64,000 nt of DNA from Actinoalloteichus hymeniacidonis. GTDB lineage: Bacteria; Actinomycetota; Actinomycetes; Mycobacteriales; Pseudonocardiaceae. Shown here one piece after another: positions 35,421 through 56,460 of this stretch. Under the pieces are notes generated by a model. The model did no database searches. It was not told the DNA's origin and saw nothing but the letters and a program-made list of their open reading frames with translations. Location: positions 4,030,001 through 4,094,000 of the forward strand of contig NZ_JACHIS010000001.1 in the NCBI RefSeq assembly GCF_014203365.1. The letters are read 5' to 3'. Every line of letters starts with the position of its first letter. The stretch's first letter is position 1. The position numbers were made by a program, and so were the translations under genes.

Positions 35421-35711
35421 TCCGGCCTCCGATCACGAACATCAGTTCGAGTGACGAGGTTACCGGTTCGCGATCTACCTCCGTGACACCACGCGCCAGT
35501 CGGCCGGCCGATCTGACGGTGATGTCGCGCGAGGGCAGATTCGGATCCGGCCGTGACGGGAGGAGCAGGCCATCTCCATCCGGTGTCGCGATCAGACGGA
35601 CGTTGCTCTATCCGGCCCTGGATCAGCCGCAGCCCCGACCTCGGCAAGGCCCTCCGGCCGTCCGATATGGATCTCCGTTATGGACCTCCGGGGTGGATCG
35701 ACGAATCGCCG
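35421..35711. other. Junction region between ruvC and the polyketide island
   Basis: About 290 bp upstream of ruvC with no supported gene. It should contain the ruv operon promoter, since yebC no longer precedes it. No direct repeat or integrase target was recognised. Confidence 0.4.
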
Positions 35712-35732
35712 GGTCCGGCGGTCGCCGGGACC
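35712..35732 (-). terminator. Possible terminator of the methyltransferase gene
   Basis: GGTCCGGCG (35712-35720) faces CGCCGGGACC (35723-35732) with one bulged G, 9 bp past the methyltransferase stop. Confidence 0.4.
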
Positions 35733-35740
35733 GAGTTCGC

Positions 35741-36598
35741 TCAATGGATCGGGTCCCACTCCGCACGAACCGAGTACACGGCGGGAAGCGGGAATCCCTC
35801 TCGTTCCCAATGCCACCAGCCACTATGCCCCTCCAACGCCTGCTGCTCCGGCCAGCGCTGCCACGGGCTCAGTGCGTGCTCGGTCAGCGTGCGAATCCTG
35901 AATCCCGCCGCTGCCAGTGCACTGACCACCTCACCCAGGTCGTGCGACCACTCGAAGCTGACCGCCGAGGCCGGATCGACGATGCGTCGCCCCTCCCCCT
36001 CGTAGGTTCCACCGTCATCGAAGCGGAAGGCGGTTCCCGTGCTCAGGTAGGGGAAATCCGTCGACAACCCTGCGCCGGGCTGGGCGTCGGCTGCGGCGAT
36101 GAACAGCGGGTGGAACTCGACGAGATACAGGAACCCGCCCGGCCGTAGAAGGCCTGCGGCGGCTTGGGCCCATTGCGCCAGATCCGGTAGCCAGCACAGG
36201 GATCCCTTGCCGGTATAGACGATGTCCGTGCTCCCCGCACCGAGGAGTTCGACGGAGTCGTACACGTCACCGTGGACGTACTCGATGTCGACAGCGCAGT
36301 CGACTGCGAGCTCACGGGCGGCATGAACGGCGGCCTCCGAGAAGTCGAGGGCTCGGACGACCGCATCGCGTCGAGCCAGGTCGATCGTGTCGGTGCCGAG
36401 GTGACACTGCAGATGCGCGATGCGGCGGCCCGCGATCGGTCCCATCTCGGCGAGTTCGAACGGCGCCAGCCGGGCGCCACCGGAACGCAGCGAGGCCAGG
36501 TCGTAGCCGGTCAGATGGATGGGAACTCGCGCGTCCCAATTTGCTCGGTTCGCTGCCAGCATGGCCGGTTGATCGGGTGCTTGCGAATCCTTCGCCAT
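35741..36598 (-). CDS. SAM-dependent methyltransferase (class I)
   Basis: The 285-residue protein has a Rossmann methyltransferase fold: motif I GRRIAHLQCHLGTDTIDLA, an acidic residue in VRALDFSEAAV, motif II/III VHGDVYDSVELL and LLRPGGFLYLVEFHP. The C-terminal third (WSHDLGEVVSALAAAGF, HWEREGFPLPAVYSVRA) resembles the broad Methyltransf_11/25-type enzymes. Substrate unknown. As the leftmost gene of the island it might O- or N-methylate the polyketide, but it lies outside the PKS operon and has its own hairpin. No good ribosome site precedes the ATG at 36598, so the start is less certain. Confidence 0.8.
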   Translation of the reverse strand: MAKDSQAPDQPAMLAANRANWDARVPIHLTGYDLASLRSGGARLAPFELAEMGPIAGRRIAHLQCHLGTDTIDLARRDAVVRALDFSEAAVHAARELAVDCAVDIEYVHGDVYDSVELLGAGSTDIVYTGKGSLCWLPDLAQWAQAAAGLLRPGGFLYLVEFHPLFIAAADAQPGAGLSTDFPYLSTGTAFRFDDGGTYEGEGRRIVDPASAVSFEWSHDLGEVVSALAAAGFRIRTLTEHALSPWQRWPEQQALEGHSGWWHWEREGFPLPAVYSVRAEWDPIH

Positions 36599-37126
36599 AC
36601 CGCACAGTAAATCGACGATCTGGTCCGGTGCTTACGATTTATTCGTTTCTTCGTGCACCGGCAGGGTTTCGCAGACAGCACGGCGAACACTCATGGACTG
36701 CATTCAACCGTGGGAACGTCGTACGGCCGACCGCCGTCAGGGCGAGCAGCGAACAGGCCGGTTCGGCGGGCCGTCGATGTCGTGGAATCCGAAGTCGATC
36801 GATGCGCTTTCGCAGGGAGATCTGCGCGGTAGTAGGCGGGTAGCGGAGGCCGGTGGCGATCACCGACCCGTCCGATGATCGGCGCCCACGAGTCTGTTTC
36901 CGACGCCTGGACCACGCGCCGACAGAAACTAACTAAGATCGTGCCCAGTTCGCCAAGATCCACCATTCAGCGGTCGCCGGCGTCGATCGCAGACGGGCGC
37001 GAGTCGTACGGCACCCGACCACTGGAGGTCGTGAACATTTCGGCCCGGTTCTTGCGCACTCAACCATTCCCAGAAGTTTTTCCAGAAAATATTTCAAATA
37101 GACCACCATGAAAGACTCATTCGAAA
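36599..37126. other. Long intergenic region with AT-rich segment
   Basis: Around 530 bp without a convincing gene. The right part (about 37060-37125) is distinctly AT-rich compared with the rest of the window, fitting a promoter or transfer-associated DNA. Frames on either strand lack ribosome sites and families. Confidence 0.45.
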
Positions 37127-37157
37127 TGACGTCACCAGAGACGGTACGGTGGCGTCA
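37127..37157. promoter_or_regulatory. Inverted repeat upstream of padR-like gene, candidate operator
   Basis: TGACGTCACC (37127-37136) and GGTGGCGTCA (37148-37157) are complementary at 9 of 10 positions with an 11-bp spacer. The site follows an AT-rich segment and lies 115 bp before the PadR start. PadR repressors often bind such dyads in their own promoters. This is inference from position and symmetry. Confidence 0.4.
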
Positions 37158-37272
37158 ATCCAGCACCATCGCACGCCAGGACCATGTTCGCCAGCCCGGC
37201 AAACCATGCCCTAAGGTGTGCCGCATCGCGGCCCCTGGCCAACATATTCTTTCTCGAGTAATCGGAGGAACC

Positions 37273-37893
37273 ATGGCGAAGCGGCGGGCATCCAGCCCGT
37301 TGACGCTGGCGGTGTTGGCCTGTCTCGCCCAGCGGCCGATGCATCCCTACGAGATGGCCACCACGATGCGCGATCAGCACCACGATTCCGCAGTGAAGAT
37401 CAACTTTGGTTCGCTGTACAACGCGGTCGAGACCTTGCGCAAATCCGAGCTCATCGATGTGCAGGGCACCGGCAGGCAGGGCAACCGACCGGAGCGCACG
37501 ACCTACGAGATCACCGAGAGCGGCCGTGATGAACTCGCTCAGCGGCTACGGGAACTCCTGAGCACTCCTGCCAAGGAGTACACGCTGCTCGCCGCCGGGT
37601 TGACGTTCATGACAGCGCTCGCACCGGATGATGTCGCCGCACAGCTCGCCCTGCGTGCCCATCGATTGGAGAAGGAACTCGAGATCGGCCACGAGGAACT
37701 CCGCGCACATCACGAGGGAGCCGATGGAGCACCCCCGCTCGCGCGGATCTTCCTGGTGGAGGACGAGTATCAGCTCGCCCTCAAGGAGACCGAGCTGAAG
37801 TGGGTCCGAAGATTGCTCCAGGACATCAACAGCGAGGTCCTCGATGGAGTGGCGGACTGGCGAGAACGGTCTTCGTCCCGTCGCCCGAGATGA
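37273..37893 (+). CDS. PadR-family transcriptional regulator
   Basis: The 206-residue protein has the PadR winged helix at its N-terminus (LTLAVLACLAQRPMHPYEMATTMRD, then the wing INFGSLYNAVETLRKSELID and YEITESGRDEL). A helical C-terminal dimerisation domain of about 110 residues (Vir_C-like subtype) follows. PadR proteins are usually repressors released by phenolic compounds or antibiotics. The ATG at 37273 has GGAGG 4 nt upstream; the frame opens earlier (37108) but has no support there. It converges on the PKS operon, so it is a plausible local sensor of the product. Confidence 0.9.
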   Translation: MAKRRASSPLTLAVLACLAQRPMHPYEMATTMRDQHHDSAVKINFGSLYNAVETLRKSELIDVQGTGRQGNRPERTTYEITESGRDELAQRLRELLSTPAKEYTLLAAGLTFMTALAPDDVAAQLALRAHRLEKELEIGHEELRAHHEGADGAPPLARIFLVEDEYQLALKETELKWVRRLLQDINSEVLDGVADWRERSSSRRPR

Positions 37894-37941
37894 GTCGGGC
37901 GACACGGGACGAGCACTCCGGGTCGACCTGTCTCCGGGACA

Positions 37942-38260: not shown

Positions 38261-38563
38261 TCAGTACGCGGCTGCCACCTGGTAAATCCCGAAAGGAGTT
38301 CGCAGCCGAGGATCACGGAACGGCCGCAATGGCGCCGTGCTGTCGCGGTGGGTCGCGCTCCGCTCCCATGCGTGGAAGGCCGCGAGGTCCTGCCATGCAC
38401 TGGCGACGACGAATCCACTGTGGTCGTGCACCGACCGCAATAGCTCGTTGCCGTTCAGACCCGGCACGCCGCGCAGACTGACGCTCGCCTGGTGGTAGGC
38501 CTCTTCGATGGCCTTCGCATCCGGTGTCGCGTGGTAGACGAGGACTCGGACTTCACCGGTCAT
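38261..38563 (-). CDS. Antibiotic biosynthesis monooxygenase (ABM) domain protein
   Basis: The 100-residue single-domain ABM protein has a ferredoxin-like fold with the pattern VRVLVYHATPD, GVPGLNGNELLRSV and GFVVASAWQDLAAFHAWERSATH. Such small cofactor-free oxygenases oxidise anthrone-type aromatic intermediates to quinones. Start ATG 38563 has GGAGG 7 nt upstream and overlaps the stop of the preceding ABM gene (ATGA), so it is translationally coupled. It is the last gene of the PKS operon. Confidence 0.85.
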   Translation of the reverse strand: MTGEVRVLVYHATPDAKAIEEAYHQASVSLRGVPGLNGNELLRSVHDHSGFVVASAWQDLAAFHAWERSATHRDSTAPLRPFRDPRLRTPFGIYQVAAAY

Positions 38564-38895
38564 CGAGCGGCCTCCCACTCGTGATGGCTGACGTCCTGGG
38601 CTTGGCCGCGTAGATACGCCACGACGTGCATCGTCGTGATGGATCCTTCCGACCGATATGGATGCAGTTGTTGACGGTGTTGGAGATGTCGATCGCTGTG
38701 TTCGAACTCGCGGAAGCGCGGCTCGTCGACCCAGTCGCTGACGATGAAGTAGACGCCGTCCTGCGCGCGGGCCAACCACTGGCCGAGGTTCGCCGGATGA
38801 GAGGTGACGGAATCGCCGACCTCCAGCCACACACGTTCGAACTCCCGCTCCATTCCAGTCTTGATCTGCATGCGGAGCATCACGCGGAAGGCCAT
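38560..38895 (-). CDS. ABM-family monooxygenase (TcmH/ActVA-Orf6-like)
   Basis: The 111-residue protein has the ABM fold: [41 protein letters not shown] and FREFEHSDRHLQHRQQL. It should oxidise a polyketide ring (anthrone to quinone) without a metal or flavin. Two adjacent ABM genes next to a ketoreductase resemble the PdmH/PdmI arrangement of pradimicin pathways. The ATG overlaps the ketoreductase stop (TGATG) and the stop overlaps the next start, so three genes are coupled. Confidence 0.87.
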   Translation of the reverse strand: MAFRVMLRMQIKTGMEREFERVWLEVGDSVTSHPANLGQWLARAQDGVYFIVSDWVDEPRFREFEHSDRHLQHRQQLHPYRSEGSITTMHVVAYLRGQAQDVSHHEWEAAR

Positions 38896-39647
38896 CAGGA
38901 GATCCCTCCGTCGACGTGGATCGTCGCTCCGGTGACGTAACGCGAGAGGTCGCTGGCCAGCCAGAGCACCGCTCCGGCCACCTCCTGCGGAGTGCCGAGC
39001 CTGCCGAGCGCCGTCTTCTCGCTGTAGCGCCGGATCATCGATTCTCGTTGTTCGGCGGGCATCGCCTGCATCGCCTCGGTCTCGATGACCCCGAGGGCCA
39101 GGACGTTGAACCGCAGGCCCGCCTTGCCGTACTCCTTGGCCAACGAGCGGCTCAGACCACGCAGTGCGGCCTTGGTCGCCGTGTAGTGGGCCCGCTGCGG
39201 AATACCGACCTCGGACGAGGTGGAGCCGATACCGATCACCGACGAGCCGTCGCCCATGAGGGGGATCGCCTGCTGGACGATCAGGTACGCCGCGGTGAGG
39301 TTGGTGTCGATGATCCGTCGCCACTCGACCAGCTCCAGCTCGCCGTAGGGCACGTGGCTGATGGCGCCCGCGTTGTTCACCACCACATCGAGTCGTCCGT
39401 GATGCCTGCCCGCCGTGTTGACGAACTCGATGGCCTGGGCGGGGTCGGCGAGATCCGCCAGCAGGACCCGGTGGTTGCCGCCGATCTCCTTGAGCTCACG
39501 TTCCAGCGAGGCGACCGCCTCGCTCTGCCGCCGATAACAGGTGACCACGTCGACGCCCGCCTTGGCCAGAGCGAGCACCACACCGCGCCCGATGCCCCGG
39601 GTCCCCCCGGTCACCAGTGCCTTCTTACCCGTGAGATTGAGGTCCAT
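38895..39647 (-). CDS. SDR ketoreductase of type II PKS
   Basis: The 250-residue short-chain dehydrogenase binds NADP(H) through TGGTRGIG (13-20), with NNAG, catalytic Ser142 (GIGSTSS), Tyr155 and Lys159 (YTATK). It ends in DVDGG-like HVDGGIS. Within a PKS operon it should reduce one keto group of the nascent poly-beta-ketone before or during cyclisation. AAAGGA lies 5 nt before the ATG. It is clearly paralogous to the SDR at 48431-49168. Spore-pigment PKS loci normally lack a ketoreductase, so its presence argues for a different product type. Confidence 0.9.
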
Positions 39648-39836: not shown

Positions 39837-40569
<733 letters not shown>

Positions 40570-40657
40570 CGAGGTCTCCCCTCTCCTGCTTGTTGGAGTG
40601 CCGCGCCGAAACCGGCACGGCGAGGTCGTTGCTCGCCCGAGGTGGTCGATGGGCGTG

Positions 40658-41914
40658 TCAGCGCTGCCGGTCCGACGCGAACCCGGCCCGACCGAGGACG
40701 AGCGCGGCGGTGAATCCGCCATGTCCCCTGGCCAGTACCAGCGCCCGCCGCAGCGGCAGACTGCGCGGCTGTCCCAGCACGAGATCGAGCTCGATTCCGG
40801 GGGCGAGGCGGGTGGTTCCCGTGGTGGCGGGAACCACCTGGTCGCGCAGGGCGAGCAGCGCGGTCGCCACGTCCAGCGACGCGCCGCCGCCGTAGAGCCG
40901 TCCGGTCAGGGTCTTGGGGGCCGTCACCGGGACCGCACCCGCACCGAACACCGAGGAGATCGCACTCGCCTCGACGAGATCGGCCGACCGCTGCCCTGCG
41001 GCGTCCGCGAAGACCACGTCCACATCGGTTGGAGCGCACCGGGCATCGGCCAACGCCCGTTCGATGGTGCGTCGAAGTACCGGCGGTCGCGCCGATCCCT
41101 CGGGCGGATCGAAGCCCGCCGCATAACCCAGCACCGAGCCATAGCCTGCACCGATGCCCCGTTGTCTGGCTCCGTCGAGGGTCTCCATGATCATGATTGC
41201 GCCGCCCTCGCCCGGCACGTACCCGGTGGCATCGACGTCGAAGGGCAAATAGGCGCGATCCGGGTGCTCGGCGACCGACAGCAGTCCGGTGGCGAGTTGG
41301 GCCACCAGGCCGTAGGGGCAGAGCGAGGCATCGGTTCCGCCGCTGACGACCAGCCGGGCATCGGCGCGCAGCAGCCGACGACCCTGCCCGACCGCATCGA
41401 TACCACCCGCCTGCTCGTTGCAGACCACCCCGCAGGAGCCGCGCATGCCGTGTCGGATCGAGACCTGGCCCGTGGTCGCCGCGTAGAACCAGGCGATGGA
41501 CTGGTACGCCCCCACCCAGGACGGACCGTTCTGATAGAGCCGTTCCATCTCGTGTTGGCCGAACTCGGTGCCACCGGAGGAACTCGCCGTGACCACGGCC
41601 ATCTCGTACTCGGGCAGCGTCGCGGGCACCACCTGGGCGTCGTCGAGCGCCGCCTGCGCGGCGGCCAGACCCAGGTGTGTCCAGTGGTCGGTCTGCGGTA
41701 TCAGCCTGCCGGGAACCCGCTCGCCTGCGGCGAATCCCGAGACCTGGCCCGCTAGCTTGACCGGATACGGCGAGGGGTCGAAACGGTTGATCCGGCCGAT
41801 GCCGGACTTCCCGGCCAACACGGACTCCCAGTGCGCCTCGACGCCGAGGCCCGTCGGCGCGACCACCCCGATCCCGGTGATCACGGTTTCCGTCGTGTGA
41901 GCGGATGCAGTCAT
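40658..41914 (-). CDS. Type II PKS chain length factor (KS-beta)
   Basis: The 418-residue ketosynthase fold lacks the catalytic cysteine: the motif reads VCNEQAGGIDAVG, with Gln168 in place of Cys, the signature of chain length factors that decarboxylate malonyl-ACP to prime synthesis. It forms a heterodimer with KS-alpha and sets chain length by its cavity. The ATG at 41914 follows AGGAGGAAG; the open frame extends to 42040. It starts 52 bp after KS-alpha, so the genes are not overlapping, unlike many KS pairs. Confidence 0.95.
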   Translation of the reverse strand: MTASAHTTETVITGIGVVAPTGLGVEAHWESVLAGKSGIGRINRFDPSPYPVKLAGQVSGFAAGERVPGRLIPQTDHWTHLGLAAAQAALDDAQVVPATLPEYEMAVVTASSSGGTEFGQHEMERLYQNGPSWVGAYQSIAWFYAATTGQVSIRHGMRGSCGVVCNEQAGGIDAVGQGRRLLRADARLVVSGGTDASLCPYGLVAQLATGLLSVAEHPDRAYLPFDVDATGYVPGEGGAIMIMETLDGARQRGIGAGYGSVLGYAAGFDPPEGSARPPVLRRTIERALADARCAPTDVDVVFADAAGQRSADLVEASAISSVFGAGAVPVTAPKTLTGRLYGGGASLDVATALLALRDQVVPATTGTTRLAPGIELDLVLGQPRSLPLRRALVLARGHGGFTAALVLGRAGFASDRQR

Positions 41915-41966
41915 CGCTGGGTCTTCCTCCTGCGGAGTTCCGGCGGCGCACTGATCGGCGCCGCGT

Positions 41967-43235
41967 TCACGGCGGGGCCACCACTCCGGGGCGGGCCAGC
42001 AGCATGGCGCTCTGGAAACCACCGAAACCGCTACCGACACTCAGCACGACGTCCATCTCGTGCTCCCTGGCCACCTTCGGCACGTAGTCCAGGTCGCACT
42101 CCGGGTCCGCGTTCTCCAGGTTCGCCGTGGGCGGGACGACCTGGCGGTCCAGGGCCAGGGCACACGCGGCGACCTCGATCGAACCGATCGCCCCCAGCGA
42201 GTGCCCGACCATCGATTTGATGGAACTGACCGGCACCTCGTAGGCGCGGGATCCGAGGCTGCGTTTGAAGGCGGCCGTCTCATGCCGGTCGTTCTGCTTG
42301 GTGCCCGAACCGTGGGCGTTGATGTAGTCGACATCGGAGGCGTCGACTCGGGCCTGATTCATCGCGACCCGGATCGCCTCGGCCATCTCGCGGCCGTCGG
42401 GTTTGAGCCCGGTCATGTGAAAGGCGTTGCTGCGCCCGGCGAATCCCACGAGTTCGGCGTAGATGTGCGCGCCCCTGCGGCGGGCCGACTCCGCGTCCTC
42501 GAGGACCAGCACGGCGCTGCCCTCGCCGAGGACGAAGCCGTTCCGGGTGGCGTCGAAGGGCCGCGAGGCGTGTTCGGCGTCGTCGTTGCGTGGCGAGGTG
42601 GCCTTGATGGCGTCGAAGCAGGCCGAGGTGATCGGGGAGAGCGGGGCGTCCGTCGCGCCCGCGATCATGATGTCGACGCTGCCCTCGGTGATCAGCGCGG
42701 CGCCGTGGCCGACCGCGTCCAGTCCCGAGGTGCAGCCCGTGGAGATGAGGCTGACCGGGCCCTCTGCGGCGTTGTCCCTGGCGACCTCGACCGCCAGCGT
42801 GCTCGGCACCATGTAGCCGTAGAGGTGCGGGACGCCGTGGTGGTGGTCGACCAGCCAGTTCCGCCCGTTGTCCGACAGGACCGCATACTCCTCTTCGAGG
42901 CCCATCGTGCACCCGACGGCGCTGCCGATGCTCACGCCGACCCGGCTCGGATCGGCGGTCAGGTCCACGCCGCTGTCGGCGATGGCCTCTCGTGCGCTGA
43001 CGACGGCGAACTGTGCCGCCCGGTCCATCCGGCGGATCTCCCGTGCGGTGAGCCCCGAGGCGACGGGATCGAAGTCGGCCTCGGCGGCGATCTGCGAGCG
43101 GAAGGCCGAGGCGTCGAACATGCTGATCCGGCGGGTGGCAGTCCGACCCGCCGTCAACAGTTCCCAGAAGTTCTCTCGTCCGACACCGCCGGGGGCGACC
43201 ACTCCGACACCGGTGACGACCACCTGTCGGCTCAC
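41967..43235 (-). CDS. Type II PKS beta-ketoacyl synthase (KS-alpha)
   Basis: The 422-residue condensing enzyme has a full active site: Cys168 in [12 protein letters not shown], His308 in [11 protein letters not shown], Lys340 and His345 in [13 protein letters not shown]. It catalyses all chain-extension condensations with malonyl-ACP. The HGSGTKQND loop is a hallmark of aromatic polyketide KS-alpha. The GTG start overlaps the cupin stop by 4 bp (GTGA), so translation is coupled. With KS-beta and ACP it forms a complete minimal PKS; the malonyl transferase is presumably borrowed from fatty acid synthesis. Confidence 0.96.
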
Positions 43236-43660
43236 CGAGCTCCCCCGACGTCCGGGTTCGGCGCCTCCGGTGAGGTGGGCGTCTCGGTGTCGACGTGGCC
43301 GAGTTCCGGGCGGGGGGCCAACGGGGAGAGGTGGAAGACCGCGTGCGCCTGGGTGGTCCCGGTGTTGACCAACCGGTGTCGAACCCCGATCGGCACGAGC
43401 AGCGAGTCACCCGCGGCGAGTGCGATGGGCACGCCGTCGAGACTCATCTCGAGGTTGCCCGCCACCACATGCAGGAACTCCTCCGAGTACGGGTGATAGT
43501 GCTCCGTGACCGCCTCACCCGCCTCCAACCACATCACCCCACCGAAACCGGAGGTCGACCCCACCGTCTTCGGGCTGAGGGTGACCCGCAGATCGCCGCC
43601 GCGCTTGCGGTTCGGCACGGCCTCGGAGAAGTTGACCTTTCCTGGTTGCGTCGCGGTCAC
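43232..43660 (-). CDS. PKS-associated cupin (putative cyclase)
   Basis: The 142-residue single cupin has metal-ligand histidines in [17 protein letters not shown] and a second motif [18 protein letters not shown]. It belongs to the small cupins found in spore-pigment loci (WhiE-ORFII/CurC-like) and in pentangular polyphenol loci, where they assist late-ring cyclisation. Its C-terminal 25 residues are Pro-rich. GGGAGG lies a short distance before the GTG at 43660, and the gene overlaps both neighbours by 4 bp. Confidence 0.88.
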
Positions 43661-43992
43661 GCGATCCTCCCGTGCTCAGATGTCCAGACATAGAACGGCG
43701 ATGCCATCGCATCCCTCGGCTCCCGCCAGCCCGGGTCGTAAGGCGAGACCAATTCGGAGAGCCGATCGTTGATATCGCGATAGAGAGGATGCGACCTCGC
43801 TTTGTAAAGGTCTGGTTGGATGTCGTGGGCCGCTTCGACGAGGTGGAAGTACAGATCGTGGAAATTGAAGAGGGTGCGTCTGGCCACCCCGACCATTCGG
43901 GGTAGGTCCGTCGCATCCGATTCGGCGAACACCTGGGCGATGGCAGCAGGATCGTCGGTCTTGAGCTTGGCGACGATCAGAGTGCGGTGCAC
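43657..43992 (-). CDS. TcmI-family polyketide cyclase
   Basis: The 111-residue protein matches the TcmI family: HRTLIVAKLKTDDPAAIAQVFAESD, FNFHDLYFHLVE and SPFYVWTSEHG. It closes a late ring of the aromatic scaffold. The GTG at 43992 has GGAGG 8 nt upstream; the frame begins at 44034 without support. It is the first gene of the nine-gene leftward operon and diverges from the SchA/CurD gene at 44192, so the 200-bp gap must contain the operon promoter. Confidence 0.92.
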   Translation of the reverse strand: MHRTLIVAKLKTDDPAAIAQVFAESDATDLPRMVGVARRTLFNFHDLYFHLVEAAHDIQPDLYKARSHPLYRDINDRLSELVSPYDPGWREPRDAMASPFYVWTSEHGRIA

Positions 43993-44052
43993 GGTCTCGG
44001 CCTCCTGTGGTCGCGCGATCGAGCGGGACGACACGAGCGTGCCAACCGGCTC

Positions 44053-44069: not shown

Positions 44070-44191
44070 CGAACTAAAGGCGGAATCGAGAAACGAGCCG
44101 ATAAGCCCTGATCGAGAGGAGAATTCTTCGCAGGGGCGCGCGAAGTCGATAGCGGATGCGCCGTTTATTCGAGACGAAGGAGCGATTCCCG

Positions 44192-46479: not shown

Positions 46480-46491
46480 GTATCGTCCCGC

Positions 46492-46947: not shown

Positions 46948-47062
46948 GTCGGGACCGCCCCGATGCTTGCCTTCACCTGATTCGCTCCTTCCCCGTGGCA
47001 CGGCGGGCTCGACCGTGCGCCTGCTGATTCCGGCGCACCCCACGGCCCGTGTCCAGGACGGC

Positions 47063-48046: not shown

Positions 48047-48050
48047 GGCA

Positions 48051-48431
48051 CTAGCTCCCGACTCGATGTGTGTCGACCGACAGCTGGGAGATGCAGCGCA
48101 TGGTCGCATCCCGGAAGTAGGCATCGAAGCCCTCCTGCGTATCGGTCTCCCGCTGTTGCTGCAGGTAGGGCGCCAATTCGTCCTCGACCACGTGCACCCC
48201 GCGTTGGGTCGCCATATGCCCGGCGATCGCGCTGAAGTCCCCCTCGTAGTGGATGACCCGAACCATGAACTCGTCCTTGATGAAGACGGCGGTGCCCAGC
48301 AGGCGTCCGGCCGGAGTGCCGTCCGGCGAGCGGAACTCGGGAGTGTCCACCCGCTGGTAACGGCCGAAGATCTCGGCGATCGCATCCTCGTTGCCGGGCT
48401 GCACCCGGTAGGTGATCGCGGCGTACGGCAT
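48051..48431 (-). CDS. SchA/CurD-like domain protein (copy 2)
   Basis: The 126-residue protein shares with copy 1 the start MPYAAITYRVQPGNEDAIAEIF and the segment GTAVFIKDEFMVRVIHYEGDF, then VVEDELAPYL. It continues to a C-terminal part also present in copy 1 (GFDAYFRDATMRCISQLSV against GFVKTFADSMLRSVTQISV), so the similarity is end to end. The ATG overlaps the SDR stop (TGATG), giving translational coupling. Function uncertain, as for copy 1. Confidence 0.85.
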   Translation of the reverse strand: MPYAAITYRVQPGNEDAIAEIFGRYQRVDTPEFRSPDGTPAGRLLGTAVFIKDEFMVRVIHYEGDFSAIAGHMATQRGVHVVEDELAPYLQQQRETDTQEGFDAYFRDATMRCISQLSVDTHRVGS

Positions 48432-49168
48432 CAGATTCCTCCATCCACGTTCAGGATTGCTCCGGTGATGTAGGCAGACGTGTCCCCTGCCAGGAACAGC
48501 ACGGCGCCCGCGACGTCCTCGGGTCGGCAGATCCGCCCGAGCGCCGTCATCGCGACGATCCGGTCGTGAACCTGCGGTGGTAGGTCGTCGGCATCCTCCG
48601 ACGCCACGACGCCGGGGGCGACGAGGTTGACCCGGATGCCGCGCGGACCGAGTTCCTTGCACAGGGCGCGGGTGAAACCGATCAGCGCGGCCTTGGCAGC
48701 CGTGTAGTGCACGCCCGCAGGCCTGCCCCGCAACGCGACCGAGGACCCGATCCCGACCACGGAGGCGCCGGGCGCGAGTAGATCGTCCAAGGCGTGGGTG
48801 ACCAGGTACGAGGCGGTGATGTTGTGATCGAGGACCCGCCGCCACTCCTGCTCGCCGAGCGCGCTGAACGGGACGGCCCCGTCGACCCCGACGTTGTTGA
48901 CCAGCACGTCGACCGACCCGAGGCCCTCGCGTACCGACTCGGCGAGCCGCTCGACGTCGTGCGCGACGGTCACGTCCGCTTGGACGAGTCGCGGTTGCAG
49001 GCCCCGTTCCGCCAGCTCCTTGGCGAGGTCGTCCGCCGCATCCCCCGGCGAGCGGTGGACTACGAGCAGCTCGGCGCCCTCTCGCGCGAACGCCTCGACG
49101 ATCACTCGACCGATCCCTCGGGTCCCGCCGGTCACGACAACCTTCTTCCCGGCCAGAGCTTGGTCCAC
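48431..49168 (-). CDS. SDR ketoreductase (second copy in the island)
   Basis: The 245-residue SDR shows TGGTRGIG (13-20), NNVG instead of NNAG at 91-94, Ser142 (GIGSSVALRG), Tyr155 and Lys159 (YTAAK), and a final NVDGGI. It has the same length plan as the PKS-operon ketoreductase at 38895 and is evidently a paralogue, so it may reduce a second keto position or a later intermediate. The GTG at 49168 has GGAGAGGAG upstream. It follows the POT transporter by 134 bp on the same strand. Confidence 0.88.
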   Translation of the reverse strand: MDQALAGKKVVVTGGTRGIGRVIVEAFAREGAELLVVHRSPGDAADDLAKELAERGLQPRLVQADVTVAHDVERLAESVREGLGSVDVLVNNVGVDGAVPFSALGEQEWRRVLDHNITASYLVTHALDDLLAPGASVVGIGSSVALRGRPAGVHYTAAKAALIGFTRALCKELGPRGIRVNLVAPGVVASEDADDLPPQVHDRIVAMTALGRICRPEDVAGAVLFLAGDTSAYITGAILNVDGGI

Positions 49169-49302
49169 CGGTACTCCTCTCCTCGACGAAACAGGTGCCC
49201 GAACGAACCCGCGAGCGCACTTGGGCGCTGGCTGAGCGAGAAGCATGGGCAGTGCAGGCGGCCCACCACGGACACGAACCGGACCGGCGCGATGGATCGC
49301 CC

Positions 49303-50847
49303 TCAGCCCGAGCCGATGGGCGTCGGCGGTGGCCCGACCGGCCGATTCGGGACCGTCGAGCCCGCGCTCCCCTCGCCGCGCCCCCGGCTCAGCGATCGGG
49401 TCAGTCGTCGCCGACCCAGCACGAAGCACAGACCGACACCGGTCGTGATCGAACCGAGGAGCAGGTAGTAGAGGGGCTCCGGAATGAGTTGGGCCAGTTG
49501 CACGACGCCACTGCCCAGGCCGCCGCCGAGGCCGGCGAAGAGCCACAACAGACCGAGGAGCCGCGAGGTGAACTGCGTGGGCAGCACCTCCGCGGCGGCG
49601 GCGATGCTCACCGAGGCGATGACGATCTCGCCCCCGGCATGTGCCAGGTACACCACCAGCAGCCAGCCCGGCGAGACCAGCGCGCCCATCGAGGCGAGCG
49701 AGGTGGCCACCGACATCAACAGGAAGCTGCCACCCATCAGCACCAAGCCGATGGCGAACTTCACCGCGACGTTGTTGCGCCGTCCGATCCTGGGCAACGC
49801 GGCGGCGATCACCGGCGCGAGCATCAGGATGAACAGCGGGGTCGCGGACTGCAACCAGCTGGCGGGAACCTCCCAGCCCAGCACCATCCGATCGGTGTGG
49901 TCCCTGGCGAAGAGATTCAGCAGCGAGGACGCGTGCGCATTCATCATCCAGAACAGCGCCGCGCCGAGGAACACCACCAGGAACGCCCGAAGCCTACGTC
50001 GGTCGCCGCTGCCGAGCCCCGGATCACGGTGCAGAGCGGCGAATCCGAGGAACGGCGCGATCACGGTGGCGATCCCGATGAGTGCGACCACCACCAGCAG
50101 GTGAAGCGCACCGAACCACCAGAGCACCAGTGTCGCGGCCAGGACGACGCCCAAGCCGATGGTGGCTCTGCGTCGCGCGACGGCTCGTTCCCGGATGTCC
50201 AATGGACGAGCCGGTGCCGCGCCGACCACGCCGAAGCGGCTCCCGCTGTTCGCCAGCCGCAGACCGCACAGCAGCATCATGAGGGCGGCTACGAGGAAAC
50301 CGAGCCGCCAGTGCACCCGCTCACCGAGATAACCGGTGATCAAGGGGGCTAGCAGCGCGCTGATCTGAACACCGACGTACATCAGCGAGATACCGGCCTC
50401 GCGTTGACGTGCATCGGAGAACATCAGGTTGATCATGGCCTGGTGGTTGGGTTTGAAGAGGCCTCCCGCGACCGCCAGTACGATGAGGCCGAGCACCGTC
50501 TGGATACCGACGGGCAAGGCCATCAGCAGGTAGCCGACCATCCCGAGGAACGCGGCCGAGGTGAGTGCACGGCGTTGGCCCAGGACTCGGTCCCCACACC
50601 AGCCACCGAAGTGCGAGAGCATGAACATCAGGCCGATCCAGGCGCCGAACAGGGGCGCCGCCTGGCCTATCGGCAGACCCAGGCCGCCCTCCGTCCGAGG
50701 CGCCGATGCATAGAGCACCAGGACCGCCTGCATACCGAAGAATCCGAACCGTTCCAAAGCGTCGGTGGAGAACAGCGTCGCGTACCACCGAGGCATGGCT
50801 CGGAGCCGAACGGGTTCGGCCGAGGGATGTGGTGTTGCGGAGTTCAT
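49303..50847 (-). CDS. POT/PTR2-family proton-coupled transporter
   Basis: The 514-residue MFS protein has about 12-14 membrane helices and the POT signature near the N-terminus (ERFGFFGMQAVLVLY), with GGLFKPNHQAMINLMF and ISLMYVGVQISALLAP, matching the PTR2 motif regions. Family members import di- and tripeptides with protons; in this island it may instead move the polyketide or a conjugate, which is inference. A Ser/Pro-rich tail of about 30 residues is cytoplasmic. GGGAGG lies 6 nt before the ATG. It appears to head the five-gene operon running to 46492. Confidence 0.87.
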   Translation of the reverse strand: MNSATPHPSAEPVRLRAMPRWYATLFSTDALERFGFFGMQAVLVLYASAPRTEGGLGLPIGQAAPLFGAWIGLMFMLSHFGGWCGDRVLGQRRALTSAAFLGMVGYLLMALPVGIQTVLGLIVLAVAGGLFKPNHQAMINLMFSDARQREAGISLMYVGVQISALLAPLITGYLGERVHWRLGFLVAALMMLLCGLRLANSGSRFGVVGAAPARPLDIRERAVARRRATIGLGVVLAATLVLWWFGALHLLVVVALIGIATVIAPFLGFAALHRDPGLGSGDRRRLRAFLVVFLGAALFWMMNAHASSLLNLFARDHTDRMVLGWEVPASWLQSATPLFILMLAPVIAAALPRIGRRNNVAVKFAIGLVLMGGSFLLMSVATSLASMGALVSPGWLLVVYLAHAGGEIVIASVSIAAAAEVLPTQFTSRLLGLLWLFAGLGGGLGSGVVQLAQLIPEPLYYLLLGSITTGVGLCFVLGRRRLTRSLSRGRGEGSAGSTVPNRPVGPPPTPIGSG

Positions 50848-51759
50848 CGGACGCCTCCCGCCGATAGCGCGCGGTCGATCGGTCAGGACCGCAGAACCGG
50901 CGGCGAAGCGACCGTGATGCGACTCCGGCGGAGCCGGGGCAGCGAATGAGGCGAGCTCTCGTCGGCAGTGCTCGCGCTCGGGCCACGCCGGTGATCACGC
51001 CGCAGCATCGCAACCCTGCCTGCGGCGCGGATCGACGTGGCGTGTGCCTGCGGCGAACACCCGTCGACGTCCAGGTGCGATGCCCGGCTCACAGAACCTG
51101 TCATGGCGCCAGACTGACGATCCGCCATCGAGAACCGCTCAAGTCGATCTCGGAGGCGCGGTCGTCCGGTCGAGGGCGCCGATGCCCTCGCACGCGCGGA
51201 CACGGTGCACGTGGAGCGCTCGTGACGGGTTCCGCCATCGCGGAATCAGGATTCGACGGAATCGGAAAGCTTCATCCGGTCGGTTCCACACTCGAAGACA
51301 GGCCGAGAACGGGTGACACCCGAGGGTCACTCAATCGGGCGGAGTCCTATTTCGCGGAAACATAACGACGATGCGCCACGACAAGCATATGACCACCGAA
51401 ACCAGGCGCAGCAGTGTATTGGTCACCGAAGCGACACCGGTCCACCACAGGTGACACAAGCTGTTCTATCCAGTCGATTTCCAGCCTTACTCCAGTCAGA
51501 CTCCAGCCAGCCTCCAGTTCGAGCGACGAACGTCGCGCTTGGTGCAGGCGACCGGATAAGACGAGAACCGTCTACATGAGCCGGGATCGACTGATATCGA
51601 AGCAGTGAGGGGAAAGAGTCGAGACAGTAGCGACCCTGCGGGGGCCGTTGGGGGCCGATATCGCCGCCGATCGCGGGTACACGACCTGGTGACTATCCGC
51701 CATCGACACGTGAGATCGGCATTCCGGGAGCTCACTGGATCAGGTCGACCGGAAGGAGA
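50848..51759. other. Long divergent regulatory region between POT operon and SARP gene
   Basis: About 910 bp without a supported gene. The right half is less GC-rich than its surroundings and contains the 11-bp-spaced heptamer array at 51467-51517. Promoters of the POT operon and of the SARP gene must both lie here. Short frames exist on both strands but lack ribosome sites. Confidence 0.55.
51467..51517 (+). promoter_or_regulatory. SARP-type operator: five heptamers with 11-bp period
   Basis: TATCCAG, TTTCCAG, ACTCCAG, ACTCCAG and CCTCCAG start at 51467, 51478, 51489, 51500 and 51511, exactly 11 bp apart, sharing TCCAG and leaving 4-bp spacers. SARP/AfsR-type activators bind direct heptamers on one face of the helix at this spacing. 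It is 243 bp before the SARP start at 51760 and 620 bp before the POT gene; a GGATAAGAC about 35 bp downstream could be a -10 region. Confidence 0.65.
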
Positions 51760-53670
51760 GTGTCAGTAGTGCAGGTCAATGTACTGGGGCCATTCGAAGT
51801 ACTACGGGAGGGGAGATATGCCACACCCTCCGCGCCGAAACTCCGTCAGGTACTCGCATTGTTGGTGACTCACGCCAACAACATCGTCCGCACCGACCAG
51901 TTGATCGAGGAGTTGTGGGAGGACCATCCACCCAAGAGCGTCACGACGACACTGCAGACCTATGTGTATCAATTGCGCAAGCTGCTGCACCTCAGCGGTT
52001 CGGGAACCCCCGTACTGCACCGGACCGATCAGTTACTCGAGGCGATGCTGTCGACATCGCCCAGCGGTTACCTGCTCGGGCTACCGCCGGATGCCATGGA
52101 CTCGCACCGTTTCGAGCAACTCGCCGAACGGGGCCGGGTCGAATTCGAGGCTGGGTCGCTCGCGGAGGCCACCGAGACGCTCGGTACGGCGCTGAAGCTG
52201 TGGCGCGGCCCCGCGCTGGTGGACGTCACGCCGGGTCCGGTCCTGCAGGCCGAGGTCGTCCGGCTCGACGAGATCCGCAAGAACGCCTTGGAACGACGGA
52301 TCGACAGCGCACTCTCGCTGAGCAGGCATCGCGAGATGCTCGGTGAGCTGACCACCGCCGTGACCAGGGAGCCGACTCACGAGGGCTTCCAGGCCCGATT
52401 GATGCTGGCGCTCTATCGATCGGGTCGACGCTCGGACGCGTTGCAGGCCTACCAACGGGCTCGGAAGGTACTCGCCGACGAGCTCGGGCTGGACCCGTCA
52501 TCGGAACTGCAGCGATTGCACAGCGCCGTGCTCTCCGCCGATCCCACGCTGGAGGCGCCCCGGATCCGGGAGTCGGTCCGGGTGTCGCAGTCGGTCGACC
52601 CTCCTGCGGAGCTGCCCTCGGATCTGGCCACGATCATCGGCCGGGAGGCACAGCTGACCACGGCACTGCAGGCGTTGACGAAGCCGGATCGCAAGGCCCC
52701 TCCCGTCGTCGTCGGTGTCGGGTCGCCCGGCACCGGGAAGTCGGCCTTCTGCATTCACACCGCGCACCGCATTCGCGGTGACTATCCGGACGGGCAGCTC
52801 TACGCCCAGCTGCTCGACGCGCACGGTGAACCGGTGGATCTCAACGAGGTGCTCGGTCACTTCCTGCGCGCGCTCGGTGTCGCTCCTGCGGCGCTGCCGA
52901 GGTCGTTGGACGAACGCTGTCAGATGTTCCGGGGCCGAACGGACGGGCGGCGCGTGCTGGTGGTACTCGACGATGTGGTCAGCACCGAGCAGGTCCTACG
53001 GCTCAAGCCGACCGGCAGCGGATGCGCCGTGCTCGTGGCCAGCCGAAGACGTCTCTCGGATCCGACGATCACCACGACGGTCGAGATGACGCCGTTGAAC
53101 ATCGGCGACTCGCTCGCGTTGCTCGGGGCCACCTTGGGCGCACATCGCGTCAACGGCGAGGTCGACGCCGTGCACGCGCTGGCGGACCTGTGCGGTGGTA
53201 TGCCGCTTGCGCTGCATGCCGCCGCCGGCAGGTTGCGATTGCGGCCGCACTGGTCGATCGCGCGGTTGGTCGACTGGGTCCGTCGGGAACAACGGCGCGG
53301 CCCGGAGCTGGCGGTCAAGGCGTTGGATCTCTCCGCGAGCATCGAGCAGACCTATCGACTGGCCTCGCCTGCGGTCCGGACGGCGTTCCGTCTGGTCTCG
53401 ATCCTGCATGAGCAGCCGGTCTCACTCCAGGCAGCCGCAGCCGTTCTGCGCTGCACCGAGTTCTCCGCCGAGTCCCTGCTCGAGGAACTCGTCGAGTTCC
53501 GGCTGTGCGATGCCGAGCCCGCCGCCGAGGAACCCGGGGGCTTCCGTTATCGATTCCCGAGTCATCTGCGGGCCGCCGCGGGCCTGTTGGAGGTAGTGCC
53601 CGACCACGACGAGATCTTCCTTCCCTCGGTCAGCGCGACACCGACCCAACGGACACCGAGTCCGCGCTGA
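51760..53670 (+). CDS. SARP-family regulator with NB-ARC ATPase domain (1)
   Basis: The 636-residue activator begins with an OmpR-like winged helix (about 5-100; VQVNVLGPFEVL, LTTLQTYVYQLRKLL-type), then the bacterial transcriptional activation domain (about 110-260). An NB-ARC-type ATPase follows (about 290-500) with P-loop GSPGTGKSAF (321-330) and VLVVLDDVVSTEQ as Walker B. Unlike AfsR it has no TPR tail; the C-terminus is a short helical part. It should activate the PKS genes through 11-bp-spaced repeats. GTG 51760 is very close to GGAAGGAG; GTG 51769 is 10 nt away and may be the true start. Confidence 0.9.
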   Translation: MSVVQVNVLGPFEVLREGRYATPSAPKLRQVLALLVTHANNIVRTDQLIEELWEDHPPKSVTTTLQTYVYQLRKLLHLSGSGTPVLHRTDQLLEAMLSTSPSGYLLGLPPDAMDSHRFEQLAERGRVEFEAGSLAEATETLGTALKLWRGPALVDVTPGPVLQAEVVRLDEIRKNALERRIDSALSLSRHREMLGELTTAVTREPTHEGFQARLMLALYRSGRRSDALQAYQRARKVLADELGLDPSSELQRLHSAVLSADPTLEAPRIRESVRVSQSVDPPAELPSDLATIIGREAQLTTALQALTKPDRKAPPVVVGVGSPGTGKSAFCIHTAHRIRGDYPDGQLYAQLLDAHGEPVDLNEVLGHFLRALGVAPAALPRSLDERCQMFRGRTDGRRVLVVLDDVVSTEQVLRLKPTGSGCAVLVASRRRLSDPTITTTVEMTPLNIGDSLALLGATLGAHRVNGEVDAVHALADLCGGMPLALHAAAGRLRLRPHWSIARLVDWVRREQRRGPELAVKALDLSASIEQTYRLASPAVRTAFRLVSILHEQPVSLQAAAAVLRCTEFSAESLLEELVEFRLCDAEPAAEEPGGFRYRFPSHLRAAAGLLEVVPDHDEIFLPSVSATPTQRTPSPR

Positions 53671-55645
53671 GCGCGGCAGCAGTCGGTCCGTGGTGTGCCC
53701 GGCTTGCGGCGTCCTGTCCTCGTTGTCGCGGACAGGGCGCCGCATTGTCGGGGCTCCACCCGCCGAGACAGCCTGCGAGCTGCGTCGCCTCGCCATCCAG
53801 ACCCGTCGATTCCCGCTGTTCCCGGGCGAACCACCGCGCCAGTGGGTGGAAGCCGAAGCGGAGCTCCTCGGTCGGGGCCCGCGCGACGATGCGCAGCAGG
53901 CCGCGTCCGACCAGTTGAACGAGCATCGCCTCGACCTTGGTCGGGTCGGCGTCGATCCGCTGCGCGGCGTCGGCCACGGTGAAGGAGGCGGGCAGTGTGG
54001 TCAGCTCACGCAACACCCACCACGCGACGCTGGTGAGGCCGCGAATCCCGGTGGCGAGACTTCGTCGTACGTCCAGGCCGTCGAAACGCAGCAGATCCAG
54101 TGGGCGCCCACTGCTCTCCAGGTGACCGGCCATCCGCGAGATCGGCCAGCCCGCCGCCGCGCTCAGGCGTGCACCGACACACCGCACCGCCAGCGGGAGG
54201 TGGCCGCACAGCTCTGCGATCCGAGCGGCCTGTTCACGTTCCGAGTCGACGCGATCGGCCCCGATCATCAGGCCCAGCAACGCCAGGCTCTCGGCGCTGG
54301 TGAGCGATTCCAGGGCATGGACCCGAGCGCCGGGCAGGCCGTGCACCCCGGCTCGCGCGGTGACCAGCACACCGCACCGTTCGCCTGCGGGGAGCAGTGG
54401 TCGGACCTGCTCGACGCTCGCGACGTCGTCGAGCACCACCAGCAGGCGACGTCCCGCACTCCAGGTGCGAAACAGCGTCGACAATTCGACCAGTCCACCG
54501 GTGAGCTGCTGCGGCGTGAAACCGGCCGCACGTAGGAAGTCCCGGAGCACCTCGACCGGCGATCGTGGTGTGGCGGAGCCCCCGAGGTCGCAGAACAGCT
54601 GGCCCCCATCGAAACAGCCCCGCAGCCGATGTCCCACCCGCACCGCCAGCGAGGTCTTGCCGACACCGGGCATCCCGCTGAGTGCCAGCACCCGAAGACC
54701 GGCTCCGGCGGCCGCGCCGGGGGTCAACCAGTCGGCCGCGTCGTTCAGCAGGCCGGCTCGGCCGACGAAGTCCGCGATGTCATGCGGGAGCTGGGCGGGC
54801 GGCTGTTCGAGACCGACGCAGGCAACGCCGCCGGGACCCGACGGCCCGATGCTGCCGATCGTGGGGCTCTCGGCGCCCTCGGTGGTTGTCACCTCGCCGC
54901 TGAGCAGCGCGTTGTGCCGGTTCTGGAGTTCGGCGGAGGGTTCGAGTCCGAGCTGGTCGATCAGGTTCCGCCGAAACCGTCGATAGACGTCCAACGCCTC
55001 GCTGCGGCGGCCTGCGAGGTTCAACGCGCTCATGAGCTGGCCGTGGAAGCCCTCGTCGAGTGAGCGGGCGACGGTCAGCTCCTTCAGCTCGCTGATCAGT
55101 TCACGGTGCCTGCCCAACGAGAGGTCCGCCTCGATGCGGTTCTGCAGGACGCGAAGCCTGCTCTCCTCCAGCCGGGTGAGGTACCCGGTCAGTAGGCTGC
55201 CGACCTCGATGCCTCCGAGTCCGGGGCCCCGCCAGAGGGACAGGGCGGACCGAAGTCGTTCGGCCGCGGACCGCACGGAACCGGACTCCAGCTCGGCCCG
55301 CCCCTGCCGGGCGAGTTCCTCGAATCGGTATTGGTCTATGTTCTCGGCGGGAGTGATGATCAGGTAGCCGGAGTACCGCGTCCGCAACGAGACTCGTTCC
55401 TCGATGGGCAACAGCGCGAAGAGTAGTTTCCGCAGTTTGTATATGTAGGTCTGCAACGTGACCAAAGCGCTCGCGGGCGGTCGCTCTCCCCATAATTCAT
55501 CCACGATCTCGCTTGTGTGCACCAGCGTATTGTGTCGCGAGATCAATAATGCGAGAACCTGTCGGATTTTCGGGGCGGTCGGAGTCAGATCGCGATCACC
55601 GACGACGACCTCCATCGGACCCAGCACGTTGAACCGAACAGCCAT
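53630..55645 (-). CDS. SARP-family regulator with NB-ARC ATPase domain (2)
   Basis: The 671-residue protein has the same layout as its neighbour: winged helix (1-95; VRFNVLGPMEVVVGD, LVTLQTYIYKLRKLLF), activation domain (about 100-250), linker, NB-ARC ATPase with P-loop SGMPGVGKTS (323-332) and LLVVLDDVASVEQV, then a winged helical segment and a low-complexity end. The ATG at 55645 has GGAGG 4 nt upstream; the frame opens at 55714. Its 3' end overlaps the end of the other SARP gene by 41 bp on the opposite strand. The pair probably controls the island. Confidence 0.9.
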   Translation of the reverse strand: MAVRFNVLGPMEVVVGDRDLTPTAPKIRQVLALLISRHNTLVHTSEIVDELWGERPPASALVTLQTYIYKLRKLLFALLPIEERVSLRTRYSGYLIITPAENIDQYRFEELARQGRAELESGSVRSAAERLRSALSLWRGPGLGGIEVGSLLTGYLTRLEESRLRVLQNRIEADLSLGRHRELISELKELTVARSLDEGFHGQLMSALNLAGRRSEALDVYRRFRRNLIDQLGLEPSAELQNRHNALLSGEVTTTEGAESPTIGSIGPSGPGGVACVGLEQPPAQLPHDIADFVGRAGLLNDAADWLTPGAAAGAGLRVLALSGMPGVGKTSLAVRVGHRLRGCFDGGQLFCDLGGSATPRSPVEVLRDFLRAAGFTPQQLTGGLVELSTLFRTWSAGRRLLVVLDDVASVEQVRPLLPAGERCGVLVTARAGVHGLPGARVHALESLTSAESLALLGLMIGADRVDSEREQAARIAELCGHLPLAVRCVGARLSAAAGWPISRMAGHLESSGRPLDLLRFDGLDVRRSLATGIRGLTSVAWWVLRELTTLPASFTVADAAQRIDADPTKVEAMLVQLVGRGLLRIVARAPTEELRFGFHPLARWFAREQRESTGLDGEATQLAGCLGGWSPDNAAPCPRQRGQDAASRAHHGPTAAALSADSVSVGSVSR

Positions 55646-55873
55646 TCTGCCTCCGGGATTCGCACGCTGGCGGGCGAAGCCGACCCGAGCCGATCGGCTT
55701 TCCTCGATCCGCATTCGAAGACGACCAGACTACTCTCCCGCCAACGCCGCCCCATTACCCGGAAAATGTAGGGCTAATACCCGGAAGAGTCACCAACAAC
55801 GCGCTGGGTGAGATTCGAAAACGAAGAAGGCAGAAACCCAATACACGTTGGGCTTAATTCATCGCGCCGCCGA

Positions 55874-55922
55874 CGGGAGTTCCCGGCGGGCCCGACCGTG
55901 GTCGGTGGGCCCGCCGCTCCCG
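55874..55922 (-). terminator. Terminator of the yebC-DUF4262 unit
   Basis: A long bulged hairpin (CGGGAG at 55874, CGGCGGGCCC at 55884-55893, with partners ending at 55922) begins 2 bp past the DUF4262 stop. It separates the housekeeping unit from the SARP gene downstream on the same strand. Confidence 0.6.
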
Positions 55923-55924
55923 TG

Positions 55925-56422
55925 TCACGGCCCGGTTCGGCCCGGAACCCAGCTCACCGGACGGCCGGTGTCGGTGAGAATCCGCTGCCAGCGGACCAAA
56001 CCCTCCGGGGCATCCGGAGACCACGGCCAGGCCCCCTGCGGAGTGGACCCGATGAGCTGCACCGCCGGGAACTCGGCCTTGCGGTACAGCAGCAGTGCAT
56101 GCCCGAGGTACTCGGCGTAGTAGCCCTTGTCCACCCGTTCGAAGGTGACCGGGCAGTCCTGGAGGAAATCGTCGTACTCCCGGCCGATCACGAAGGCCTC
56201 GCCCGCGACGGTCCGCCGGATGTACTCGTTGAGCACGGTGTGCGCCACCTTCGGCGGCATCCCCACGGCCACGACCTCCGGACTGCCACACCGTCGCCAC
56301 AACCCGACGGAGAAGGCGAACGGCGGCCCGGTGCGATCACCCGCGATATGCACGACGGCGGCGCCGTGCTCCTCCGCATCGGCGAGCAGTCTTCGACGGG
56401 CCTCGGCGTCTCCGGGAAGCAT
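55925..56422 (-). CDS. DUF4262 domain protein
   Basis: The 165-residue cytosolic protein matches the DUF4262 pattern: an N-terminal AVVHIAGDRTGPPFAFSVGLW, PEVVAVGMPPKVAHTVLN, and a C-terminal FPAVQLIGSTPQGAWPWSPDAPEG. No catalytic residues can be argued and the family has no known activity. The ATG is preceded by AGGAGG at 10 nt. It lies 38 bp after yebC on the same strand and is likely co-transcribed; it marks the right border of the accessory island or its last gene. Confidence 0.8.
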   Translation of the reverse strand: MLPGDAEARRRLLADAEEHGAAVVHIAGDRTGPPFAFSVGLWRRCGSPEVVAVGMPPKVAHTVLNEYIRRTVAGEAFVIGREYDDFLQDCPVTFERVDKGYYAEYLGHALLLYRKAEFPAVQLIGSTPQGAWPWSPDAPEGLVRWQRILTDTGRPVSWVPGRTGP

Positions 56423-56460
56423 TCGGACGGTTCCTCCTATCCGGGTCGCCGACCGAGCGA

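Follow-up and report, generated by a model that had tools for sequence, protein, structure and literature searches.

The closest described systems to the gene cluster treated here are those for the xanthone antibiotic MBL-AB01, for xantholipin (xan) and for lysolipin (llp). MBL-AB01 was obtained from a strain nearly identical to Actinoalloteichus fjordicus ADI127-7, and 43 genes were assigned to it (PMC12838262). For 37 of these 43, the same report gives xantholipin genes of similar function, and it names xan homologues for the halogenase and the P450. XanO4 converts an anthraquinone into a xanthone, XanA forms the amide bond, and XanH carries out the halogenation (PMC9327801, PMC13200232). 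The minimal polyketide synthase (PKS) and cyclases of lysolipin alone yield lysoquinone-TH1, a weakly antibacterial pentangular quinone (PMC6164072). The cluster analysed here lies in Actinoalloteichus hymeniacidonis between the conserved genes yebC and ruvC, within a stretch of 64,000 nucleotides (the window; positions 4,030,001-4,094,000 of the 6,306,207-bp single-contig genome), to which all coordinates below refer.

Quite probably, this type II PKS cluster belongs to the xantholipin/lysolipin/MBL-AB01 lineage, entered between a DUF4262 gene and ruvC before the three genus genomes compared here split, and has been inherited since, losing its late genes with the scaffold pathway left intact. 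Gene content, gene order, divergence and the lack of any close copy of five late enzymes in the whole genome were all observed directly. In the titles and abstract openings of the open-licence literature, no description of a reduction of such a cluster or of its yebC-ruvC location was found.

A short form of a 56-kb locus

All island genes except a methyltransferase have colinear orthologues in two other Actinoalloteichus genomes (G001 and G002), in the same place and with 66-92% protein identity (the orthology of the second SchA/CurD gene was assigned by position). From yebC to ruvC, the gap measures 21,043 bp in the window, 56,227 bp in G001 and 56,682 bp in G002; judged by gene order, the window segment is the short form of a 56-kb locus. 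The long form of the relatives is, by gene order and functions, the published MBL-AB01 cluster (PMC12838262). The window differs from the matching G001 island by the absence of 24 called genes, including every enzyme that can be mapped to a post-scaffold step; a few of the 24 may fall outside the published 43.

The anchor genes keep one order between the window and G001, and seven intervals hold the extra G001 genes, each interval being longer in G001 by the length given: 8.3 kb between the regulator gene SARP1 and the MFS transporter gene, 1.0 kb between the genes of the 3-hydroxyisobutyrate dehydrogenase-like (HIBDH) reductase and the anthrone oxygenase, 14.0 kb between antiporter and SchA/CurD 1, 6.3 kb between SchA/CurD 1 and cyclase, 0.3 kb between aromatase and the short-chain dehydrogenase/reductase gene SDR1, 3.4 kb between ABM2 and PadR, and 1.6 kb between PadR and ruvC. 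G001 also has 0.4 kb more in front of the antiporter, where no orthologue-bearing gene was called. The extra genes encode, among others, a P450, FAD monooxygenases, a multicopper oxidase, a tryptophan-halogenase-type enzyme, a luciferase-like enzyme, two O-methyltransferases, a GMC oxidoreductase, an NmrA-like protein, an MFS transporter, a glycosyltransferase, a carboxyltransferase, a biotin carboxylase and an enzyme of the asparagine-synthase type (so named after its homologue in G058). In the 11 intergenic pieces of the window island, no remnants of the 24 missing proteins were detected at an E value of 0.1. The spacer between the MFS and SARP1 genes has matches to two stretches of the long arrangement. 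Positions 51284-51637 match DNA upstream of SARP1 in the relatives (blastn E values of 1e-29 and 1e-22), and positions 51109-51178 (G001) or 51109-51229 (G002) match DNA upstream of their halogenase gene (2e-5 and 8e-7). These two stretches, joined in the window, stand about 7.3 kb apart in G001.

Five late enzymes were searched for in the whole window genome. The xanthone-type (XanO4-like) monooxygenase has no close copy there (best match 41%, against 94% in G002 and 69-75% in five outgroup genomes), nor have the XanO2-like P450 (38%, against 92% in G002), one of the two O-methyltransferases (34%), the XanA-like amide synthetase (34%) and the XanH-like halogenase (25%). The second O-methyltransferase and the XanO5-like enzyme are absent from the window island, no genome-wide search having been aimed at these two. 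The best PDB matches of the xanthone-type monooxygenase are RubL and GrhO5, names from the rubromycin and griseorhodin pathways.

Going by the published descriptions of the xan and llp clusters and not by their sequences, the window cluster shares with them the minimal PKS, two ketoreductases, three cyclases and small oxygenases (PMC12838262, PMC9327801). In contrast, counterparts of XanO4, XanH, XanA, XanO2, XanO5 and XanM2/M3 are lacking; the first four are enzymes that mark a xanthone cluster of the xantholipin/lysolipin type. Descent from that lineage is indicated by the colinearity with G001 and by trees of the ketosynthase (KS) and chain-length factor (CLF), in which xan and llp sequences are not included. 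When the genes are mapped to MBL-AB01 by order, 12 of the 13 early scaffold genes are kept in the window, namely the three of the minimal PKS, both ketoreductases, three cyclases and all but one of the five proteins put forward for the conversion of compound 4 to 5. None of the seven later tailoring enzymes is kept (two O-methyltransferases, the Baeyer-Villiger monooxygenase, the halogenase, the amide synthetase, and the XanO5-like and XanO2-like enzymes). The Fisher value of 1e-4 for this difference is overstated, as the seven late genes fall in only three intervals by the same mapping.

Probable inheritance within the genus, and family background

An entry of the cluster before the split of the three genus genomes, with vertical inheritance since, would be the best explanation because island and flanks are alike in synonymous divergence (dS), codon use and GC content at third codon positions (GC3). 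Median dS against G001 is 0.745 for 18 island genes and 0.69 for 16 flank genes (p = 0.39); against G002 it is 0.695 and 0.69 (p = 0.72). The DUF4262 gene was counted as flank, w18476 was dropped (47-50% identity; dS of 1.00 and 1.14), and four more distant left-flank genes stayed outside the set, as they had no match in the relatives' stretches compared. Codon distance (p = 0.44) and GC3 (p = 0.50) do not differ between 11 island and 20 flank genes of more than 200 codons, the comparison being made with the window flanks and not with the whole genome. In both the KS and the CLF tree, the three genus members stand together (100/99 in both), and the window genome branches outside G001 and G002 (91/62 and 97/94). 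The trees include 16 of the 80 loci from a contig scan, whose listing had many distant ketosynthases and no genus member.

For the family background, 150 genomes of the family, genus included and drawn evenly from a larger group, were searched for YebC and for a RuvC core of 170 residues. YebC was matched in 149 of them and the RuvC core in 148, one or both being absent in 2. The two genes were found on one contig in the expected order in 127 genomes, on different contigs in 15, and unlinked on the same contig in 6. Among the 127 linked genomes, the median gap is 1,565 bp; 83 gaps are below 2 kb, 28 exceed 5 kb and 7 exceed 20 kb. Measured against this median, the gap of the window is not a matter of chance. 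In the KS comparison, 11 candidates were scored per genome, and matches were listed down to about 241 bits. At least 107 listed matches in 74 genomes reach 480 bits or more, and none of those outside the genus lies inside the yebC-ruvC gap; the nearest non-genus match on a shared contig, among the matches listed, is 95 kb from ruvC. Such distances are measurable on shared contigs only, and the fragmentation of draft genomes restricts the comparison. The claim of the sequence-only reading that the junction is interrupted is thus borne out relative to the family.

In six genomes (G023, G060, G088, G109 (genus g22), G024 and G044), yebC and ruvC lie far apart on a single contig, and the linkage has therefore been broken in some lineages. 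Four genomes outside the genus (G147, G067, G114 and G121) have 20-51 kb between the two genes and no listed type II KS match there; the gaps were read by open reading frame (ORF) calls only.

Competing explanations

A recent horizontal insertion of the complete 21-kb cluster into this genome, for instance by the homologous exchange between conserved flanks that the sequence-only reading proposed, would agree with the short family median gap and with the position of related clusters elsewhere in the family where measurable (among the matches listed). It would also agree with the missing tRNA and border repeats. On this point the earlier observations were reproduced: neither the scanned ORFs of the window island nor 33 proteins from the relatives' islands (47 ORF calls each) include an integrase or transposase, the window has no tRNA, and the two border zones have no exact 10-mer in common in the window or G001 and one chance-like 10-mer in G002. 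A sharp change of composition at both borders, put forward as a check, is seen at one border at most. GC content is 68.0% on the left, 67.2% in the island and 69.5% on the right. At 35.4 kb the content falls modestly, from 0.690 to 0.651 over 3 kb, and a step at least as large occurs at 4.7% of positions, but the steps at 55.7 and 56.5 kb are equalled or exceeded at 78% and 47% of positions and are not unusual, and codon use and GC3 are unchanged. None of the marks of a mobile island (integrase or transposase, tRNA site or border repeats, foreign composition) was therefore seen in the ORFs, border zones and genes compared. The island is not peculiar to this genome, as the same genes occur in the same order and place in both other genus genomes with flank-like dS; at genus level (two of two genomes), this is the old arrangement that the sequence-only reading had named as its refutation. 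Recent insertion was rejected on the genus comparison and dS, and it is very improbable. For the older entry of the cluster, homologous exchange is a candidate mechanism. Equally remote is the view that the yebC-ruvC junction is a family-wide integration hotspot for biosynthetic clusters. More than a fifth of the linked gaps do exceed 5 kb, and three of the seven above 20 kb are in the genus, but no non-genus KS match of at least 480 bits lies near the junction (among the matches listed). The contents of eight other long gaps are known from ORF calls only.

Within the genus, the late genes may have been lost in the window lineage or gained in the common line of G001 and G002 after the split, the short cluster being the older form in the latter case. 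Seven related family clusters elsewhere were examined within about 20 kb of their KS gene, that of G066 only as far as its contig runs. The xanthone-type monooxygenase, glycosyltransferase, luciferase-like and SDR3 genes are each present in five of the seven, as is the carboxyltransferase gene, and the amide synthetase gene is present in four. Loss appears to be the better reading because outgroup clusters carry several late genes and because xantholipin has the counterparts mentioned above (PMC12838262); for this first group of genes it is firmly indicated. A gain would moreover need several insertions of co-functional genes, and it is considered unlikely. The short cluster could also be a decaying, non-functional remnant, since many genes are lost and the window lineage has an excess of lineage-specific residues in the island (192 against 120 for G001; 193 against 114 for G002). 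Yet four flank genes are biased alike (24 against 11, p = 0.04; 25 against 14, p = 0.11), the KS is unbiased (11 against 11), and no island-specific acceleration of the rate was found relative to those four flank genes. All 19 retained frames tested are open, nonsynonymous divergence is below dS in 18 of 18 genes, and the genes kept form a coherent early pathway. A working simplified pathway seems to be favoured over a decaying one because the frames are open and the excess changes are not island-specific; decay is given about the same low probability as late gain.

Several points weigh against the preferred explanation of an inherited cluster that lost its late genes. The sequence of the MFS-SARP1 junction alone fits gain as well as loss, its matches being symmetrical. 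The halogenase and the multicopper oxidase occur in only one of the seven outgroup clusters each, the P450 was not among the outgroup queries, and two of the seven clusters (G063 and G025) are without most tailoring genes. The case for loss is weaker for the halogenase and the P450, whose direction is read from published xantholipin homologies, and weakest for the multicopper oxidase, whose direction is read from G020. The carboxylase genes were also lost, and precursor supply is assumed to come from elsewhere. The assignment of the published MBL-AB01 locus tags to G001 genes follows order and function and not a sequence record. Finally, with dS as high as it is here (0.4-1.5), island and flanks could differ modestly in age without this being detected.

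Proposed pathway and product

After the entry of the cluster, as many as seven separate intervals would have been stripped of late tailoring genes in the window line, and a locus of about 56 kb would have shrunk to 21 kb. KS-alpha, CLF and the acyl carrier protein (ACP) would build one long poly-beta-ketone chain, which two SDR reductases and three cyclases would reduce and fold. The ABM, anthrone-oxygenase-like and SchA/CurD-like proteins may then oxidise the folded chain to a pentangular quinone, to be exported by the retained transporter under the control of SARP and PadR regulators. Without the xanthone-forming monooxygenase, the halogenase, the O-methyltransferases and the amide synthetase, the pathway would stop before the xanthone. 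The roles of single enzymes are those of published homologues, and product and activity are, like the direction of loss, inferred.

The features of a pentangular-type type II PKS are present (KS-alpha, CLF and ACP together, three cyclases, ketoreductases), and a pentangular polyphenol that is not a xanthone is predicted by analogy. A. hymeniacidonis probably makes a simpler compound than its relatives. The nearest experimental analogue of the possible product is lysoquinone-TH1 (PMC6164072). This compound came from an engineered strain; with the reductases and oxygenases that the window set adds, a different product is expected. It is possible, although we lean against it, that the truncation was directed by function. 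Several deletions would then have removed every assigned post-scaffold step and kept the scaffold pathway, the regulators and the exporter, giving a simpler pentangular quinone with another role. A black soluble pigment has been reported for A. hymeniacidonis (PMC5168871), and its link to the cluster is a guess.

For cluster 9 ("T2pks, xanthone"), Table 5 of PMC5676828 scores A. hymeniacidonis and A. hoggarensis as carriers and A. spitiensis and A. cyanogriseus as non-carriers. Provided that the genome analysed here is of the species scored, the score for A. hymeniacidonis is to be corrected, the xanthone-forming gene being absent here. Two PKSII clusters are listed for this species in PMC5168871, which sits badly with the single close type II KS-alpha in its genome (next matches 38-39% identity). 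A long and a short form at one locus in three close species would allow a direct test of how an antibiotic pathway shrinks and its product changes, and in the short form the engineered lysoquinone experiment would have a natural parallel. In PMC12838262, xanthobaccin A from A. hymeniacidonis is called a macrolactam xanthone, with reference to a paper titled on polycyclic tetramate macrolactams. A compound of the polycyclic tetramate macrolactam class would not come from the window cluster.

Gene content and borders

By Pfam, the island holds type II PKS and tailoring genes together with regulators of the SARP and PadR families and genes for a Na+/H+ antiporter and an MFS/POT transporter, with ruvA and ruvB on the ruvC side and pdxT and pdxS on the yebC side (Table 1). 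The sequence-only reading was right on this arrangement, and on its extent (35421-56460) in all but the right-hand part, which holds the DUF4262 gene. This gene adjoins yebC in all three genus genomes. Of 29 other loci examined, 26 have it within the yebC-ruvC gap, and it is therefore considered ancestral; the exceptions are G006 and, as far as their first 20 kb go, the long gaps of G147 and G121. Upstream of ruvC, about 105 bp still align with G001 and about 60 bp with G002. The acquired segment thus spans about 35.5-55.9 kb, with its right end near 55.7-55.9 kb. The best PDB match of KS-alpha is the actinorhodin KS (3e-180). NCBIfam gave precise names for none of the cluster proteins tested, and Rfam gave nothing at gathering scores in the window.

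Table 1 Features of the yebC-ruvC region of A. hymeniacidonis (window coordinates; percentages are protein identities)
Feature	Position	Strand	Basis
ruvC, left conserved flank	34503-35420	-	translation; RuvC homology family-wide
SAM methyltransferase	35741-36598	-	Pfam Methyltransf_12/25/11; no counterpart found in G001/G002 islands
PadR-family regulator (ORF opens 37108)	37273-37893	+	Pfam PadR; 84-86% in G001/G002
ABM monooxygenase 2	38261-38563	-	Pfam ABM; 78-79% in G001/G002
ABM monooxygenase 1	38560-38895	-	Pfam ABM; 82% in G001/G002
SDR ketoreductase 1	38895-39647	-	Pfam adh_short_C2; 82% in G001/G002
Aromatase/cyclase	39837-40304	-	Pfam Polyketide_cyc; 86-87% in G001/G002
ACP (start approximate)	40309-40590	-	Pfam PP-binding; 85-86% in G001/G002
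CLF, KS-beta (start approximate)	40658-41959	-	Pfam ketoacyl-synt; 82% in G001/G002
KS-alpha	41967-43235	-	Pfam; 90-92% in G001/G002
Cupin-type cyclase	43232-43660	-	Pfam Cupin_2; 81% in G001/G002
Polyketide cyclase	43657-44034	-	Pfam Cyclase_polyket; 83-84% in G001/G002
SchA/CurD-like protein 1	44156-44581	+	Pfam SchA_CurD 3e-45; 79-82% in G001/G002
Na+/H+ antiporter	44876-46429	+	Pfam Na_H_Exchanger; 70-73% in G001/G002
Anthrone oxygenase-like protein (start approximate)	46492-46989	-	Pfam Anthrone_oxy; 72-74% in G001/G002
HIBDH-like reductase (start approximate)	47063-47947	-	Pfam NAD_binding_2/11; 79-81% in G001/G002
SchA/CurD-like protein 2	48051-48431	-	homology, 49% to SchA/CurD 1; frame read
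SDR ketoreductase 2 (start approximate)	48431-49180	-	Pfam adh_short_C2; 71-76% in G001/G002
POT/MFS transporter	49303-50847	-	Pfam PTR2, MFS_1; 72% in G001/G002
MFS-SARP1 junction spacer	50848-51759	.	blastn matches to G001/G002 DNA
SARP/AfsR-type activator 1	51760-53670	+	Pfam BTAD, Trans_reg_C, NB-ARC; 86% in G001/G002
SARP/AfsR-type activator 2	53630-55714	-	Pfam BTAD, NB-ARC; 66-68% in G001/G002
DUF4262 gene, ancestral yebC neighbour, outside acquired cluster	55925-56422	-	Pfam DUF4262 (on longer ORF)
yebC, right conserved flank	56461-57276	-	Pfam; present family-wide

The two SARP genes are convergent, and their 3' ends overlap by 41 bp (53630-53670); the called ORFs overlap by 71 bp in both G001 and G002. 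At its C-terminus, the window RuvC is extended by about 135 residues of low complexity (34503-34910); long open frames, of 301 and 339 amino acids, are found in the relatives as well. Near pdxS, a gene for a lytic polysaccharide monooxygenase (Pfam LPMO_10) is located at 61924-62625.

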